Below, piece after piece: positions 31,886-38,561 of a stretch of 64,000 bases of DNA. Each line of letters opens with the position of its first letter. Within the stretch, counting starts at the first letter, position 1. The stretch lies in NCBI GenBank assembly GCA_035628995.1, contig DASPIR010000021.1, positions 1 through 64,000 on the forward strand, written 5' to 3'. Both the position numbers and the translations under genes were made by a program. Below the pieces are notes generated by a model that was not told the DNA's origin, did not search any database, and saw only the letters and a list, made by a program, of their open reading frames with translations. Source of the DNA: Clostridia bacterium. GTDB lineage: Bacteria > Bacillota > Clostridia > Lutisporales > Lutisporaceae.

Positions 31886-32239
31886 ATGAAAATATGCGAC
31901 GTTAGCAACATATTGAACGCAGAGGTGTTGTGTGGAGATAAGAATTTGAACAAGGAGGTTTCCTATGCCTTCGGTTCTGATCTTATGAGCGACGTTCTGG
32001 CTTTTGTAAAAGGAAAGACGATTCTCCTTACCGGACTTACCAACCAGCAGGTGGTAAGAACAGCTGAAATGGCTGATTTAAGCGCCATAGTTTTTGTCAG
32101 GGGGAAAAAACCTGAAGAGGATATTATAAGTCTGGCTTGCGAGAATGAGATTGTGCTTCTCTCGACCAGGGATACTTTGTATACGGCTTCAGGAAAGCTA
32201 TACAGCAACGGGCTTGAAGGAGTAAGCATAGGCCTGTAG
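31886..32239 (+). CDS. DRTGG-domain protein 1
   Basis: A single-domain protein of 117 residues. The string SYAFGSDLMSDVLAFV...ILLTGLTNQQVVRTAEMADLSAIVFVRGK is the DRTGG-domain pattern, related to the N-terminal domain of some HPr kinases and found next to phosphotransacetylase and CBS domains. Small stand-alone versions recur beside [FeFe]-hydrogenase-related genes in Clostridia. AAAGGGGG precedes the ATG. The function is unknown; a ligand-sensing role is a guess from context. A second paralogue is at 34059. Confidence 0.85.
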   Translation: MKICDVSNILNAEVLCGDKNLNKEVSYAFGSDLMSDVLAFVKGKTILLTGLTNQQVVRTAEMADLSAIVFVRGKKPEEDIISLACENEIVLLSTRDTLYTASGKLYSNGLEGVSIGL

Positions 32240-32327
32240 GGGACTGCACCCTCGCGGTTCTGTTTTGGTTAGATGCCCTCGTTGTACTGTTTGTAATTTA
32301 TAGAGTCAATTTATGGAGGAAATACTA

Positions 32328-32759
32328 ATGCAAGATATAAATTATGCATTTACTGTTGAAAAAGATGATTTTGTCAGAGCAGGAGAAGCATCCAGCAATA
32401 TAAAAAAGATTTTGAGACAGTTGGGGATTGATTCTGCTGTCATAAGAAATATATCTATTGCTACTTATGAAGCAGAGATGAATATTGTAATTCACTCCAT
32501 GGGCGGTCATATTGAACTGGAGATCACCCCGGGGTTTATAAAAATAACAGCAAGTGATAGAGGTCCTGGCATAGCTAATGTTGAACTCGCTATGCAGGAG
32601 GGTTATTCAACAGCTACAGATAAAATCAGGGAAATGGGCTTCGGAGCTGGTATGGGTTTGCCAAATATGAAAAAATGCTCCGATAGATTTAGTGTGGATT
32701 CTTCTGCAGGAAAAGGTACGGTAATTTCTATGGAAGTTGATTTGAAAGCAGGTGATTGA
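32328..32759 (+). CDS. RsbW/SpoIIAB-like ATPase (anti-sigma-type serine kinase)
   Basis: A 143-residue GHKL-type ATPase. It has the N box ISIATYEAEMNIVIHSMGG, G1 box ITASDRGPGIAN and G2 box GFGAGMGLPNMKKC, as in RsbW/SpoIIAB kinases. ATG 32328 follows GGAGG; an ATG 15 bp earlier lacks one. No sigma factor or anti-anti-sigma gene is adjacent. It ends one base before the hydrogenase-like Fe-S gene, so coupling with that protein is more likely than sigma control. Confidence 0.88.
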   Translation: MQDINYAFTVEKDDFVRAGEASSNIKKILRQLGIDSAVIRNISIATYEAEMNIVIHSMGGHIELEITPGFIKITASDRGPGIANVELAMQEGYSTATDKIREMGFGAGMGLPNMKKCSDRFSVDSSAGKGTVISMEVDLKAGD

Positions 32760-32760
32760 A

Positions 32761-34032
32761 ATGGGAGGGAAGTACTTTCACTCGGTTGTGCTGAATGATG
32801 ACAGATGTGTCGGCTGTACAAGCTGTCTAAAAATATGTCCAACTGAAGCAATAAGGCTGAGAGAGGGAAAGGCTCGGATAATAGGCGAAAAATGCATTGA
32901 CTGCGGCGAATGTATTAGAATATGCCCCAACCATGCTAAGAATGCAGTCACAGATACTCTTGACATCATGAAAAGGTACAAATACACTATTGCTATACCT
33001 TCTCTGGTGCTTTACGGGCAATTTCCCGGGAATGTCGGAATAAATGAGATGCTGGCAGCAATAAGGAAAATAGGGTTTGACGAGATATACGAAGCATCGG
33101 TTGGCACGGAGATAATAACCAATGTATTAAAAAACCACATACTTAAGAATCCGGACAAGAAGAGACCGATAATAAATGCTACCTGTCCCGCAATACTTAG
33201 GCTTATACAGATCAGGTTCCCTGAGCTGCTGCCTAATGTGGCCGATATAGAAACTCCTATGGAGATAGCAGCGCGGTTGGCAAAGATAGAAGCTGTAAAA
33301 AAGACTGGCTTGTCCATAGCTGAGATAGGAGTTGTTTTCATTTCACCATGTACTGCAAGGATGACAAGTGTGACAAATCCATTGGGCATTAAGAATTCTT
33401 ATATCGATGGGGTATTGTCAATGAAGGCGGTTTACGGTGAAATATTGCGGAATATTAGCAGCAGCAAAGCTGAAGATATTACCAGAAGTAGCAAGGAGTC
33501 ACTGCTCTGGCCTTTAGTTGGAGGTCAGGGGGAACCGCTGGGAATAGAGAATTATCTTGCTGTTGATGGGATACATGAGGTTATCAAGGTGTTGGAAGAA
33601 ATTGAGATGGATAAGCTGGACGGACTGGAGTTCTTTGAGGGCATGGCTTGTATAGGAGGGTGTGTAGGCGGACCGCTTACCATTGAGAACCCCCATATTG
33701 CCAAAAACCGTATGAAGGCACTGTCAAAAGGGCTATCGAGCTCGAATACCTGTGAAGAAGAGATAAAAGCACAAATAGAAATGTATAAGGATGGTTTGAT
33801 AAGGCTTACAGAAAAAATTGAGCCTAGAGCAATAATGCGTCTGGATGACGATATTTCCAAGTCAATGAGAAAAATGGAAATGATAAAGGAAATATTAAAA
33901 TACCTGCCAGGTATTGATTGCGGCGTTTGCGGAGCACCAACCTGCAGGGCTTTTGCAGAAGATATTGTAAAGGGTGAGAATCAAAAGGCCATTTGCATAG
34001 TTAAGACAATGGAAAGCTTCAAAAATAAGTAA
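32761..34032 (+). CDS. [FeFe]-hydrogenase-like iron-sulfur protein with altered active-site motifs
   Basis: A 423-residue protein. Residues 14-60 form a two-cluster ferredoxin domain (CVGCTSCLKICP, CIDCGECIRICP). The middle is a hydrogenase large-subunit-like domain in which the H-cluster motifs are recognisable but changed: INATCPAIL near 138-146, FISPCTARM near 193-201, EGMACIGGCVGGP near 293-305. The four cluster-binding cysteines (142, 197, 297, 301) remain. The proton-relay cysteine of TSCCP is threonine, and MPC is SPC. The C-terminus has an extra CxxCGxPxC cluster site (387-395). A sensory or electron-transfer role is more likely than hydrogen turnover. Confidence 0.88.
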   Translation: MGGKYFHSVVLNDDRCVGCTSCLKICPTEAIRLREGKARIIGEKCIDCGECIRICPNHAKNAVTDTLDIMKRYKYTIAIPSLVLYGQFPGNVGINEMLAAIRKIGFDEIYEASVGTEIITNVLKNHILKNPDKKRPIINATCPAILRLIQIRFPELLPNVADIETPMEIAARLAKIEAVKKTGLSIAEIGVVFISPCTARMTSVTNPLGIKNSYIDGVLSMKAVYGEILRNISSSKAEDITRSSKESLLWPLVGGQGEPLGIENYLAVDGIHEVIKVLEEIEMDKLDGLEFFEGMACIGGCVGGPLTIENPHIAKNRMKALSKGLSSSNTCEEEIKAQIEMYKDGLIRLTEKIEPRAIMRLDDDISKSMRKMEMIKEILKYLPGIDCGVCGAPTCRAFAEDIVKGENQKAICIVKTMESFKNK

Positions 34033-34058: not shown

Positions 34059-34394
34059 ATGATAATAAGAGAATGCAGTGAGAAAATGGGATTAAAGCTG
34101 TTGGCCGGAACTAACGGCATAGATAAGGAATTGGGAGGAGCTTATATTTGTGATCTATTAAGCTGGGTCATGGCCCATGGCAAGAAGAATGATGCATGGA
34201 TAACTGTTCAAACTCACTCAAACATAATAGCAGTGGCAGCATTGTTGGAGCTGGGCTGTATTATTGTACCGGAAGGCATAGAGGTTGAAGAGGATACTTT
34301 ACGTAAGGCTGAGGAAGAGAACATTGCAGTTTTTCAATCAAATCTGAGCGCTTACGAGCTTGCAAAAGAACTTTACAAGATGGGAATTGAATAG
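34059..34394 (+). CDS. DRTGG-domain-like protein 2
   Basis: A 111-residue protein. YICDLLSWVMAHGKKNDAWITVQTH and NIIAVAALLELGCIIVPEGI give the DRTGG-like pattern, here with SWVMAH and WITVQTHSN replacing the residues of the first paralogue. AGGAGG precedes the ATG. It is flanked by the hydrogenase-like protein and the PHP protein. As with paralogue 1, the biochemical role is unknown. Confidence 0.82.
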   Translation: MIIRECSEKMGLKLLAGTNGIDKELGGAYICDLLSWVMAHGKKNDAWITVQTHSNIIAVAALLELGCIIVPEGIEVEEDTLRKAEEENIAVFQSNLSAYELAKELYKMGIE

Positions 34395-34395
34395 C

Positions 34396-35121
34396 ATGGA
34401 ATTTGCGGTGGATTTTCACATACACACGGCATTATCACCGTGTGGTGATGAGGACATGACACCAAGTAATATAGTGAATATGGCTCTTCTAAAAGGACTC
34501 GATATTATAGCCGTTACGGATCACAACTCCTGCGGCAATCTTCCGGCAGTTATGGAAGTGGCAAGAGAAAACGGGCTGATGGTTATCCCGGGGATGGAAG
34601 TCCAGACAAAGGAAGAAGTCCACGTAGTCTGCCTTTTCAAAAAAATAGAGGGAGCTTTAAAATTTGCTGAGATAGTATATAATTCCTTGCCAGATATAAA
34701 GAATAATGAGGAAGTGTTTGGGCGCCAACTGCTTTTCAATGCAAGAGATGAAATAGTTGGAAAAGAAGAGAGACTTCTGCTGTCTTCGGTCGCTCTTTCG
34801 GTCAATGACGTTTTTATATTGGTCAGAGGACTTGGAGGAATTTGTATTCCAGCTCATGTGGACAGACCAAGTTTTAGTATTATTGCAAATCTTGGCTTCA
34901 TCCCTGCCAATCTCAAAGTAAAAACAATAGAGATATCAAAAAAGTTCACTCCAGAAGCTGCTTTTAAAAAATACCCATTCTTAAGTAAGTTCAATTATAT
35001 AGTATCCTCTGATGCTCATTATCTGGAAGATATAAGTGAGAGAGAATTCTTTATCGAGCTGGATTGCCTGAGTATAAGTGAGATTTTTGATAAGCTTGAG
35101 GTCAAGGAAGAGGCTATGTAA
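34396..35121 (+). CDS. PHP-domain metal-dependent phosphoesterase
   Basis: A 241-residue PHP-fold protein with the metal ligands in order: DFHIHTALSPCG, IIAVTDHNS, VIPGMEVQTKEEVHVVCLF, CIPAHVD and IVSSDAH. Such stand-alone PHP proteins hydrolyse phosphoesters such as nucleotides or sugar phosphates. The substrate here is unknown. ATG 34396 begins one base after the stop of the DRTGG-like gene, so the two are translationally coupled. It is the last gene before the gap carrying the Rex-like box. Confidence 0.88.
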   Translation: MEFAVDFHIHTALSPCGDEDMTPSNIVNMALLKGLDIIAVTDHNSCGNLPAVMEVARENGLMVIPGMEVQTKEEVHVVCLFKKIEGALKFAEIVYNSLPDIKNNEEVFGRQLLFNARDEIVGKEERLLLSSVALSVNDVFILVRGLGGICIPAHVDRPSFSIIANLGFIPANLKVKTIEISKKFTPEAAFKKYPFLSKFNYIVSSDAHYLEDISEREFFIELDCLSISEIFDKLEVKEEAM

Positions 35122-35296: not shown

Positions 35297-35770
35297 ATGT
35301 CTGACGCTGCAATGAAAGAAAAGATGGAGAAACTGGAGCATGTACTTATAGAGCACAAGGATCAGCAAGGTGCTTTAATGCCAGTTCTTCATGAAACTCA
35401 GGAATTATTCGGGTATATTCCTGAAGAAGCACAGAAGAGAATCTCAGAGGTATTGAACGTCTCATTGGCTGAAATATATGGCGTAGCCACTTTTTATTCA
35501 AGGTTTACCTTGAAGCCAAGAGGTAAGAACACAGTAAGTGTGTGCCTTGGAACAGCATGCTATGTTAAAAACGCACAAGGAATACTGGATAAGCTCAAAG
35601 AAGAGCTTAAAGTAGCGGCTGGAGAAACAACAGGAGATGGAATATTCACACTTGAGGCAACCAGATGTCTTGGCTGCTGCGGACTTGCTCCGGTAATGAT
35701 GATAAATGAAGAAGTATATGGCAAATTAGTACCTGAAGATATTCCAGACATATTGAAGAAGTATCAATAG
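35297..35770 (+). CDS. nuoE: NuoE/HydC-like [2Fe-2S] subunit
   Basis: A 157-residue thioredoxin-fold ferredoxin subunit of NADH-linked complexes. It begins with the helical NuoE N-terminal domain (ALMPVLHETQELFGYIPEEAQKRIS) and holds the [2Fe-2S] ligands in VCLGTACYV and ATRCLGCCGLAP. It pairs with the NuoF/HydB-like flavoprotein 1 kb downstream, in an order seen in electron-bifurcating HydABC clusters. GAAGGAGGG precedes the ATG. It is first in a four-gene operon under the putative Rex-controlled promoter. Confidence 0.95.
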   Translation: MSDAAMKEKMEKLEHVLIEHKDQQGALMPVLHETQELFGYIPEEAQKRISEVLNVSLAEIYGVATFYSRFTLKPRGKNTVSVCLGTACYVKNAQGILDKLKEELKVAAGETTGDGIFTLEATRCLGCCGLAPVMMINEEVYGKLVPEDIPDILKKYQ

Positions 35771-35779
35771 TATTTACTT

Positions 35780-36343
35780 ATGAAAGATTTATCGCTGCAT
35801 ATTCTGGACTTGTCCCAAAATTCAGTTTCAGCAGGGGCTAGTCTTGTGAAAATTACTATTCATGAAGATATAGAAATGAATAAACTTACTATATATATAG
35901 AAGACAACGGAGCAGGCATGGATAAAGATTTTCTAGAAAGGGTCAAAGATCCCTTTGTTACTACGAGGACCACCAGAAAAGTCGGTCTTGGCATACCGCT
36001 TATGCTGGCGTCTTGCACTAGATGTGAGGGAGACCTTGTGATTGAATCACAGAAAAATGTTGGAACCAAGCTTACAGCCACATTTAAGCACAGCCATATT
36101 GACAGAGCTCCCATGGGCGACATGTCTGAAACCATGTTGAGCCTTGTCCTCGCAGGCAATGATAGTAGTAAAGCTGTTGATTTTGTATATAGGCATATTA
36201 TAGGCCATAGGGATTTTTGCTTTGATACAAGAGAGATAAGGACTGCGTTGGGTAATGATGTGCAGCTTTGTGAACCTGACGTTCTGATGTGGATAAAGGA
36301 TTATATTAATGAAGGTTTAGTGAATTTACGCGGAGGTGTGTAA
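35780..36343 (+). CDS. Histidine-kinase-like ATPase (GHKL fold) of the hydrogenase-type cluster
   Basis: A 187-residue protein with a GHKL ATP-binding domain: the N box LHILDLSQNSVSAGA, the G1 box IEDNGAGMD and the G2 box KVGLGIPLMLASC. No phosphoacceptor histidine domain or receiver domain is present, so it is not a complete sensor kinase. The C-terminal 80 residues have no recognised domain. Proteins like this recur between NuoE- and NuoF-like genes in Clostridia and are poorly characterised. Confidence 0.85.
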   Translation: MKDLSLHILDLSQNSVSAGASLVKITIHEDIEMNKLTIYIEDNGAGMDKDFLERVKDPFVTTRTTRKVGLGIPLMLASCTRCEGDLVIESQKNVGTKLTATFKHSHIDRAPMGDMSETMLSLVLAGNDSSKAVDFVYRHIIGHRDFCFDTREIRTALGNDVQLCEPDVLMWIKDYINEGLVNLRGGV

Positions 36344-36344
36344 A

Positions 36345-36713
36345 ATGAAAACAATTCAGGAATTAGAAGCGATTAGAAAGAAAACCCTTGACACAATCAA
36401 TGTTAGAAAGGATAGATCTGGCACTAGAGTAGTGGTAGGGATGGCAACCTGCGGCATAGCTGCAGGAGCAAGACCAGTGCTTCTTTCGATAATGGATGAA
36501 GTAAAGAAATACGATTTGGCGGATGTAGTTGTTGCACAGACAGGCTGTATAGGCATGTGCAGGCTGGAGCCTATTGTAGAGGTATACAAACCCGGAGAAG
36601 ATAAGGTAACTTATATAAAAGTTAATGCTGCAAAGGCCATAAGAATTGTAAACGAACATATTATTCAAGGCAAGGTTGTCGATGAATATACAATCGGAGT
36701 CGGAGATAAATAG
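36345..36713 (+). CDS. Thioredoxin-like [2Fe-2S] ferredoxin
   Basis: A 122-residue protein starting at ATG 36345 behind GGAGGTG. The [2Fe-2S] ligand set is visible as ATCGIAAGA (C near 34) and TGCIGMC (C near 69 and 73), as in the N-terminal domain of NuoF/HydB-type proteins. It probably shuttles single electrons within the NuoE-NuoF assembly. The ATG follows the previous stop codon by one base. NuoE, this protein and NuoF each carry such a domain. Confidence 0.9.
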   Translation: MKTIQELEAIRKKTLDTINVRKDRSGTRVVVGMATCGIAAGARPVLLSIMDEVKKYDLADVVVAQTGCIGMCRLEPIVEVYKPGEDKVTYIKVNAAKAIRIVNEHIIQGKVVDEYTIGVGDK

Positions 36714-36767
36714 GCGAAGGCTTGCAGAACAGAAAGCAATTACAGTAATCTGTTAGGAGGTAAATAA

Positions 36768-38561
36768 ATGGAAATGTATCGTTCCCATGTCATGATTTGC
36801 AGAGGTACTGGCTGTACTTCAACAAATTCGGAACAAATTGCAAAGAACTTTGAAGAAGAAATTAAGAAGCATGGTCTGGATGGTGAAGTTGTCGTAGAAA
36901 GGACTGGCTGCTTTGGACTTTGTGCCCTTGGACCAGTAGTAATAATATATCCTGAAGCTTCTTTTTACAGTATGGTTAAGCCTGAGGATGTTGAGGAAAT
37001 TGTAAAAGAGCACCTGGTAAAAGGAAGAGTTGTAAAGAGACTGCTTTATGCAGAATCTGTTGAGGGAAACAGAATAAAAGCAATTGAAGAGGTTGACTTC
37101 TATAAGAAGCAGGTCAGAGTTGCTTTAAGAAACTGTGGTATTATAAATCCTGAGAATATAGATGAATATATAGCTTTTGACGGCTACAAAGCTCTTGCCA
37201 AGGTACTTACAGAGATGACGCCGGCAGAAGTAGTAGATACAGTGAAGAAATCAGGACTTAGAGGAAGAGGCGGCGCAGGATTCCCTACCGGTATGAAATG
37301 GGATTTCGCTGCAAAGTCACAGAACGATCAGAAATATGTTCTGTGTAATGCGGACGAAGGAGATCCGGGAGCATTCATGGACAGAAGCGTGCTTGAAGGA
37401 GACCCGCATTCAGTGTTGGAAGCAATGACTATTGCAGGCTATGCAATAGGTGCCAATCAGGGATATATTTATTGCAGAGCGGAATATCCAATAGCTGTTA
37501 AACGTCTTGCAATAGCAATAGGGCAGGCTAGGGAATATGGACTTCTAGGTGAAAACATAATGGGAACAGGCTTCAAATTTGACCTTGAAATAAGACTTGG
37601 AGCTGGAGCCTTCGTATGCGGAGAGGAAACCGCTCTGATAGCTTCGATTGAGGGGCAGAGAGGTATGCCAAGACCAAGACCTCCGTTCCCGGCAGTAAAA
37701 GGATTGTTTGGAAAGCCAACAATACTGAATAATGTAGAAACCTATGCAAACATAGCTCCAATATTCAATAAAGGTCCGGAATGGTTTGCCAGTATGGGAA
37801 CTGAAAAGTCAAAGGGTACAAAAGTATTTGCACTTGGCGGCAAGATAAACAACACAGGACTTGTTGAAATCCCGATGGGAACAACCATGAGGGAAGTTAT
37901 ATATGAAATAGGGGGAGGCTGTCCAAACGGCAAGAAATACAAAGCTGCTCAGACAGGTGGGCCTTCAGGCGGCTGCATACCTGCAAGCGAGCTTGATGTA
38001 GCTATAGATTATGAGAACCTTATTGCGCTCGGTTCCATGATGGGTTCCGGAGGACTCATAGTTATGGATGAAGACAACTGTATGGTTGACATAGCAAGGT
38101 TCTTCCTAGACTTCACAGTTGACGAATCCTGCGGTAAGTGTACTCCATGCCGTGAAGGTACAAAAAGAATGCTCGAAATATTGGAAAGAATCACAGAAGG
38201 CAAGGGCGAAGCTGGCGATATTGAGAAGCTCGAAACACTTGCAAAGAATATTAAAAACTCGGCTCTGTGCGGGCTTGGGCAAACAGCGCCAAACCCAGTG
38301 CTTTCTACATTGAGATATTTCAGGGATGAGTATGAGGCACACATAAATGAAAAGAGATGTCCGGCAGGAGTATGCCAAGCGCTTCTAAACTATACAATAC
38401 TGGAAGATAAATGCAAGGGCTGCGGAATATGTGCAAAGCAGTGTCCGACATCCTGCATCTCAGGACAGCCAAAGAGCGCTTATAGCATAGATTCCAGCAA
38501 ATGTGCAAAATGCGGGGTTTGCCTGCAGAAGTGCCCATTCAAGGCGATTATAAAGAAATAA
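36768..38561 (+). CDS. nuoF: NuoF/HydB-like NADH-binding flavo-iron-sulfur subunit
   Basis: A 597-residue, multi-domain subunit. The N-terminal [2Fe-2S] thioredoxin-like domain (ICRGTGCTS, RTGCFGLC) is followed by the NuoF core binding FMN and NADH (SGLRGRGGAGFPTGMKW, NADEGDPGAFMDR, GAGAFVCGEETALI). Next comes the [4Fe-4S] site ESCGKCTPCREG, and finally a two-cluster ferredoxin tail (CKGCGICAKQCP, CAKCGVCLQKCP). This domain set is that of HydB in bifurcating hydrogenases and related formate dehydrogenases. It should oxidise or reduce NAD(H). No HydA follows, so the partner subunit is not encoded here. The operon ends in a terminator. Confidence 0.95.
   Translation: MEMYRSHVMICRGTGCTSTNSEQIAKNFEEEIKKHGLDGEVVVERTGCFGLCALGPVVIIYPEASFYSMVKPEDVEEIVKEHLVKGRVVKRLLYAESVEGNRIKAIEEVDFYKKQVRVALRNCGIINPENIDEYIAFDGYKALAKVLTEMTPAEVVDTVKKSGLRGRGGAGFPTGMKWDFAAKSQNDQKYVLCNADEGDPGAFMDRSVLEGDPHSVLEAMTIAGYAIGANQGYIYCRAEYPIAVKRLAIAIGQAREYGLLGENIMGTGFKFDLEIRLGAGAFVCGEETALIASIEGQRGMPRPRPPFPAVKGLFGKPTILNNVETYANIAPIFNKGPEWFASMGTEKSKGTKVFALGGKINNTGLVEIPMGTTMREVIYEIGGGCPNGKKYKAAQTGGPSGGCIPASELDVAIDYENLIALGSMMGSGGLIVMDEDNCMVDIARFFLDFTVDESCGKCTPCREGTKRMLEILERITEGKGEAGDIEKLETLAKNIKNSALCGLGQTAPNPVLSTLRYFRDEYEAHINEKRCPAGVCQALLNYTILEDKCKGCGICAKQCPTSCISGQPKSAYSIDSSKCAKCGVCLQKCPFKAIIKK

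Follow-up and report, generated by a model that had tools for sequence, protein, structure and literature searches.

The gene hydS, at positions 32761 to 34032 of the window (the whole 64,000-nucleotide stretch of DNA analysed here), encodes a protein that is, by its sequence, a group D (subclass M2e) HydS-type [FeFe]-hydrogenase homologue, for which TamHydS is the characterised model. Its product probably acts as a low-turnover H2 or redox sensor, built on the [FeFe]-hydrogenase scaffold and signalling through the RsbW-like ATPase encoded next to it. The finding is known in kind, as the literature on group D already describes the lost relay cysteine, the neighbouring kinase-like ATPase and a role in sensing, and a sensory role with a kinase-like neighbour has been proposed for the group (Land 2020, PMC8163306; Carere 2012, PMC3561251). 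What is new here is a variant group D family that lacks the proposed alternative proton relay, the equivalent of E252 in TamHydS.

The hydS gene and its product

The hydS reading frame starts with the ATG at 32761 and ends with the stop codon at 34030–34032; an in-frame GTG nine bases 5' of this ATG is an alternative start. The product matches the Pfam families Fe_hyd_lg_C (1.2e-31), Fer4 and, at its C-terminus, FeS (4.2e-12). Its features are as follows.

32761–34032, + strand: hydS, group D (M2e) HydS-type [FeFe]-hydrogenase homologue, 423 aa, recognised from Pfam, alignments, trees, the structural model and PDB matches
32806–32928, + strand: N-terminal 2×[4Fe-4S] domain (C16, C19, C22, C26, C45, C48, C51, C55)
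33175–33189, + strand: L1 motif N139-A140-T141-C142-P143, from alignments
33343–33360, + strand: L2 motif S195-P196-C197-T-A-R200, from alignments
33526–33528, + strand: Q256, where TamHydS has E252, which has been proposed as the proton relay of group D
33637–33663, + strand: L3 motif E293-G-M-A-C297-I-G-G-C301, E293 being the equivalent of TamHydS E289
33919–33996, + strand: C-terminal cluster site Cx2Cx4Cx16C (C387, C390, C395, C412), Pfam FeS

In the L1 motif, T141 occupies the site of the relay cysteine C299 of CpI (A137 in TamHydS), and in the L2 motif S195 corresponds to M353 of CpI and R200 replaces a lysine. The earlier note had read these changes as TSCCP to NATCP, with loss of the relay cysteine, and as MPC..K to SPC..R, and both readings are borne out. 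The H-cluster cysteines 142, 197, 297 and 301, which it described as kept, are indeed invariant, together with E293, in 160 sequences that include the window's family. The eight N-terminal cysteines and C387, C390, C395 and C412 are invariant in an alignment of 81 sequences, giving three predicted [4Fe-4S] sites besides the H-cluster ligands; the C-terminal site is thus present as claimed, with four cysteines instead of the three originally noted. Structure prediction, which had been proposed as a check, yields a confident [FeFe]-hydrogenase fold (AlphaFold2, mean pLDDT 93.1; the best solved matches are all [FeFe]-hydrogenases), but the model is silent on whether a diiron subsite binds. Because HydS is kept at 60–81% identity across the window's (Lutispora-like) family, it is neither a chance reading frame nor a degenerate hydrogenase, both of which are ruled out by this identity and the invariant ligands.

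Placement in group D

Group D proteins, represented by the characterised TamHydS (PMC8163306, PMC10407848, PMC13104023), have no relay cysteine, carry Ser or Thr in place of M353, a change typical of M2e (PMC8163306), and end with a Cx2Cx4Cx16C site. HydS of the window combines an H-domain, two N-terminal [4Fe-4S] motifs and the C-terminal Cx2Cx4Cx16C with T141 at the site of C299 (CpI) and S195 at that of M353. Pfam finds no match in it to a PAS domain, of the kind fused in group C (M2f). It is 51% identical to the group D protein of Thermoanaerobacter wiegelii (locus L036) and only 25–28% identical to the group A, B and C enzymes of its own genome, and trees, with no root other than a single distant row or the midpoint, place it with known group D proteins. 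Membership of group A, B or C is ruled out by the absent PAS domain, the identities and the family scores.

TamHydS positions were located through T. wiegelii, whose numbering plus 2 gives that of TamHydS at each published residue checked (A137, S249, E252, D265, E289, C379 and C404). The proposed group D proton pathway of E252, E289, S249 and D265, which is highly conserved in the group and not strictly defining, is incomplete in HydS: E293 and D269 are kept, whereas E252 has become Q256 and S249 has become V253. These changes weaken the case for use of that pathway by the window's family, not its placement in group D. In the initial reading the family went unrecognised, and Q256 in place of E252, the fourth cysteine at the C-terminus and the other genes of the module had not been noticed.

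The H-cluster pocket of the window's family

Q256, N139, R200 and a Thr, Ser or Asn at position 141 are common to all 19 sequences of the window's family. Because the E252 equivalent is Q256 on top of the missing relay cysteine, both proposed relays, the group A cysteine and the group D glutamate, are gone from this family. Among the 160 non-redundant sequences, two of which are distant non-group-D hydrogenases, residue 256 is Glu in 124 and Gln in 31; A141 is paired with E256 in 113 sequences and with Q256 in none, and the 24 sequences with R200 all have Q256. In the family comparison, which leaves both distant hydrogenases out, only seven alignment columns cleanly separate the window's family from E-type group D. 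Besides one insertion these are six columns, three of which lie at the H-cluster; the chance of this is near 0.002 if about 20 of the 423 positions are assumed to line the pocket.

The window's family forms one clade (100% SH-aLRT) and only two E/Q changes at position 256 are needed over the whole tree, so the Q256 pattern marks a lineage and does not reflect repeated convergence. An independent co-evolution of positions 141 and 256 was therefore dropped, shared ancestry explaining the strong pattern, and a loss of E282 (CpI) is not claimed, that column being poorly aligned and variable. Four other group D relatives (L126, L160, L169 and L173; L060 holds the same gene as L160) combine Q256 with an Asp at the relay-cysteine position, and in these the acid seems to have changed sides at the cluster. 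Neither Asp at 141 nor Glu at 256 occurs in the window's family.

These residues bear on whether HydS might be a slow but genuine hydrogenase, taking up or evolving H2, that sits in a regulatory operon by happenstance. TamHydS does catalyse both reactions, if slowly, and its Km for H2 is low (PMC10407848); the N-terminal electron-transfer clusters of HydS are intact in sequence. Against this, only with Asp in place of the relay cysteine did a group A enzyme stay active, and all other replacements had less than 14% of wild-type activity, the limit of detection (PMC3485046); E252 variants of TamHydS lose activity (PMC10407848), and Q256 is without that carboxylate. Since the pairing of hydS with a kinase-like ATPase gene is, additionally, near universal, we consider catalysis as its function highly unlikely.

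A five-gene module around hydS

The hydS gene lies in a module of the order DRTGG–RsbW–HydS–DRTGG–PHP, in which it is accompanied by the following genes.

31886–32239, + strand: DRTGG-domain protein 1, 117 aa (Pfam DRTGG 2.1e-10), with a D-L-M-S motif
32328–32759, + strand: RsbW/SpoIIAB-like GHKL ATPase (Pfam HATPase_c_2 2.7e-11), reading frame open from 32313
34059–34394, + strand: DRTGG-like protein 2, 111 aa (Pfam DRTGG 1.9e-5, narrowly missing the cut-off), with a D-L-L-S motif
34396–35121, + strand: PHP-domain metallophosphoesterase, 241 aa (Pfam PHP 1.4e-10)

The RsbW-like gene more likely starts at the ATG at 32328 than at 32313, because GGAGG sits just before 32328, and it ends at 32759, one base upstream of the hydS ATG, as described before. 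Between it and the first DRTGG gene, positions 32240–32270 hold a stem-loop followed by a T-rich stretch, a weak terminator-like match that is no better than those in shuffled sequences. The best solved relative of the RsbW-like product is the anti-sigma F factor SpoIIAB (E 2e-4), although its score of 55.5 bits stays below the curated anti-sigma F factor cut-off of 135. Its N, G1 and G2 boxes, which mark a GHKL ATPase, are 92–100% conserved (E56, E58 and N60; D85-x-G-P-G; GFGAGMGLPN; alignment numbering).

Counting the window and 80 further loci, 76 of 81 have the RsbW-like gene immediately 5' of hydS. Of the five exceptions, one is a contig edge, three are Anaerosolibacter/Alkaliphilus loci with a DRTGG gene instead, and in L087 the order differs because the hydrogenase taken there is a more distant one. 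In three related loci (L045, L075 and L090; Pfam check on L075), an OmpR-type response regulator gene directly precedes the RsbW–HydS pair, and DRTGG genes were not found in place there. The gene of DRTGG protein 1 is found upstream in 74 of 81 loci and that of DRTGG-like protein 2 in 72 of 81, and the full five-gene set is present in 67 of 80 loci and extends over several phyla, with Firmicutes and contigs labelled Syntrophorhabdales, Deltaproteobacteria and Sumerlaeota.

The Asp and Ser of the D-L-x-S motif are 100% conserved in both DRTGG proteins (74 and 72 sequences; D42 and S45 of protein 1 in an alignment numbering that begins 10 residues before its ATG), and the DRTGG domain of the pyrophosphatase of the same genome reads G-A-M-N-P at this position. 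The metal-site residues of the PHP protein are likewise 100% conserved (72 loci). The core module includes no gene for a sigma factor, a STAS protein or a DNA-binding protein. From their conservation, we hypothesise that the DRTGG serines may be phospho-acceptors in place of STAS proteins. Beyond the module, no gene recurs consistently in the loci inspected that would serve as a clue to the target.

The downstream operon and other hydrogenases of the genome

Beside the module lies a hydrogenase-type operon with hydC- and hydB-like genes and without hydA, which is absent there in the whole of the window's family.

35297–38561, + strand: hydrogenase-type operon of four genes, hydA absent
35297–35770, + strand: NuoE/HydC-like, from Pfam and curated family matches
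35780–36343, + strand: second GHKL ATPase, between the NuoE-like and small [2Fe-2S] genes
36345–36713, + strand: small [2Fe-2S] protein
36768–38561, + strand: NuoF/HydB-like

The second GHKL ATPase is conserved in most hydABC-linked loci. In relatives outside the window's family that have hydB, hydA usually comes next after it; in the window's family, Rnf genes take that place. Of the 56 group D loci whose downstream flank is complete, 18 are without hydB, and the module therefore does not depend on a bifurcating hydrogenase.

The missing hydA raises the idea that HydS replaces HydA as the electron-input or regulatory subunit of the adjacent NuoE/HydB-like NADH oxidoreductase, in line with the NuoE, HATPase, ferredoxin and HydB genes that trail the module without hydA in the Lutispora-like family. 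However, the genome encodes a group A HydA elsewhere, beside a selenocysteine-type formate dehydrogenase gene, and HydS keeps the full sensor architecture and its module. Partners are ambiguous as well, because there are three HydB homologues in the genome, and a role as substitute subunit is, in our view, barely credible. The formate dehydrogenase gene that adjoins the group A hydrogenase (L146, 3151–5829, − strand) contains an in-frame TGA, in DHCARL(U)HASTVAGL, which is probably a selenocysteine codon.

Another locus of the same genome (L145, 5820–10209, − strand) has three consecutive genes, for a group C HydS that carries a PAS domain, for a SpoIIE-type phosphatase and for a group B hydrogenase, an arrangement resembling the hfs operon; the L1 motif of this group C HydS is TTCCP, with the relay cysteine kept. 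Because the group C HydS precedes a SpoIIE-type phosphatase, kinase-type and phosphatase-type outputs are attached to two sensor groups, D and C, in one genome.

Maturases and the H-cluster

HydF and HydG are present in the window's genome along with other [FeFe]-hydrogenases. Among 393 genomes of the class, 135 have both HydS and HydG and 41 have HydS without HydG (odds ratio 3.6). However, 38 of these 41 hold other Fe-hydrogenase-domain proteins, so that the missing HydG is more likely a search or assembly gap, and the co-occurrence was dropped as proof of an H-cluster. Several near-complete genomes (G074, G157, G228 and others) encode several [FeFe]-hydrogenases, including some of group A size, and give no match to HydF or HydG; this pattern is patchy within genera and perhaps again reflects a search or assembly gap.

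These data, and those on the pocket, have to be weighed against the alternative that the HydS scaffold, no longer supplied with a diiron subsite, senses redox state by [4Fe-4S] clusters only and signals through the same RsbW-like ATPase. Such a sensor would fit Arg for Lys at 200, Asn for Ser at 139 and Gln for Glu at 256, replacements that all lie in the [2Fe] pocket and are shared by 19 of 19 sequences of the family, as well as the lack of hydA in the family's cluster and some group D-positive genomes in which HydG or HydF is not matched. On the other hand, it leaves the invariance of the four H-cluster ligands and E293 in 160 sequences unaccounted for, the window's genome has the maturases HydF and HydG and other [FeFe]-hydrogenases, and the HydG negatives are probably gaps. 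We therefore regard a sensor with [4Fe-4S] clusters only as rather unlikely.

Proposed mechanism

Taken together, these findings favour a low-turnover H2 or redox sensor that signals via the RsbW-like ATPase. Sensing with a GHKL output, already put forward in the earlier note, gains partial support from the adjacency in 76 of 81 loci, the intact ATP boxes and the three response-regulator loci; the idea is not new, having been published for group D. In TamHydS, turnover is very low, the Hred state is stabilised and H2 induces a structural change (PMC8163306, PMC13104023), while H2 elicits no response from the C-terminal cluster (PMC13104023). Because of these two properties, the change in structure and the unresponsive cluster, we favour a conformational over a redox output.

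Specifically, HydEFG would insert the H-cluster into HydS, and H2 or electrons would then shift the state of this cluster slowly, proton exit being presumably poor, so that HydS would dwell in a reduced state instead of turning over. The resulting conformational change would be passed on to the RsbW-like kinase/ATPase, which may phosphorylate or bind a partner, most likely a DRTGG protein via its D-L-x-S serine, and the neighbouring NADH- and ferredoxin-linked genes would be adjusted in expression or activity. Against this scheme stand the slow H2 turnover that TamHydS does show and the lack of sigma factor, STAS and DNA-binding genes in the core module. No experiment was found in which a group D protein senses H2 in living cells, and the signal of the window's family might not be H2, because this family is without both proposed relays and hydA. 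A bolder version, to which we give only a small chance, holds that the rebuilt pocket (N139, T/S/N141, R200 and Q256) passes protons through neither the group A cysteine nor the group D glutamate and forms a near-zero-turnover H2 or redox switch driving an RsbW-like kinase that acts on DRTGG proteins replacing STAS proteins, which would be a new partner-switching pathway.

Comparison with known systems

The RsbW-like neighbour resembles the anti-sigma kinases SpoIIAB and RsbW in its GHKL family and intact N, G1 and G2 boxes, but it scores far below the curated anti-sigma F factor family and its module has no STAS antagonist or sigma gene. HydS shares with group C (M2f) HydS proteins (TmHydS, R. 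albus HydS and HfsB) the sensory proposal, the frequent loss of the relay, a C-terminal FeS site and a signalling enzyme gene nearby. Unlike HydS, the group C protein has a PAS domain and a SpoIIE-type phosphatase partner (L145, same genome), and the two are 28% identical. Cthe_0335 and other M2e proteins, found beside kinases and upstream of bifurcating hydrogenase genes, have been called sensory (Carere 2012, PMC3561251). In that listing their clusters include all subunits of a trimeric hydrogenase, whereas in the window's family hydA is missing from the cluster; among the sequences aligned here, an Acetivibrio relative (L094) has A141, K200 and E256.

TamHydS of Thermoanaerobacter mathranii is like HydS in its domain order (an eight-cysteine N-terminal domain, the H-domain and Cx2Cx4Cx16C, with no PAS domain), in the absence of the relay cysteine, in Ser at M353 and in the E289 and D265 equivalents. 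The flanking genes also agree, with an RsbW-like gene upstream and a DRTGG gene downstream as seen in T. wiegelii (L036), and because these two flank hydS there, the name 'AraC' probably refers to the DRTGG gene. Unlike TamHydS, HydS carries E252 to Q256, A137 to T141, Lys to R200 (L2), S135 to N139, S249 to V253 and D403 to I411, and hydA is missing behind hydB in its family. A natural lineage with Gln in place of E252 offers a test of the published group D proton-pathway model, and the compact, near-universal module of DRTGG, RsbW-like ATPase, HydS, DRTGG and PHP genes offers one candidate kinase and one candidate serine. With the Gln lineage and this module, signal transmission by sensory [FeFe]-hydrogenases becomes testable.
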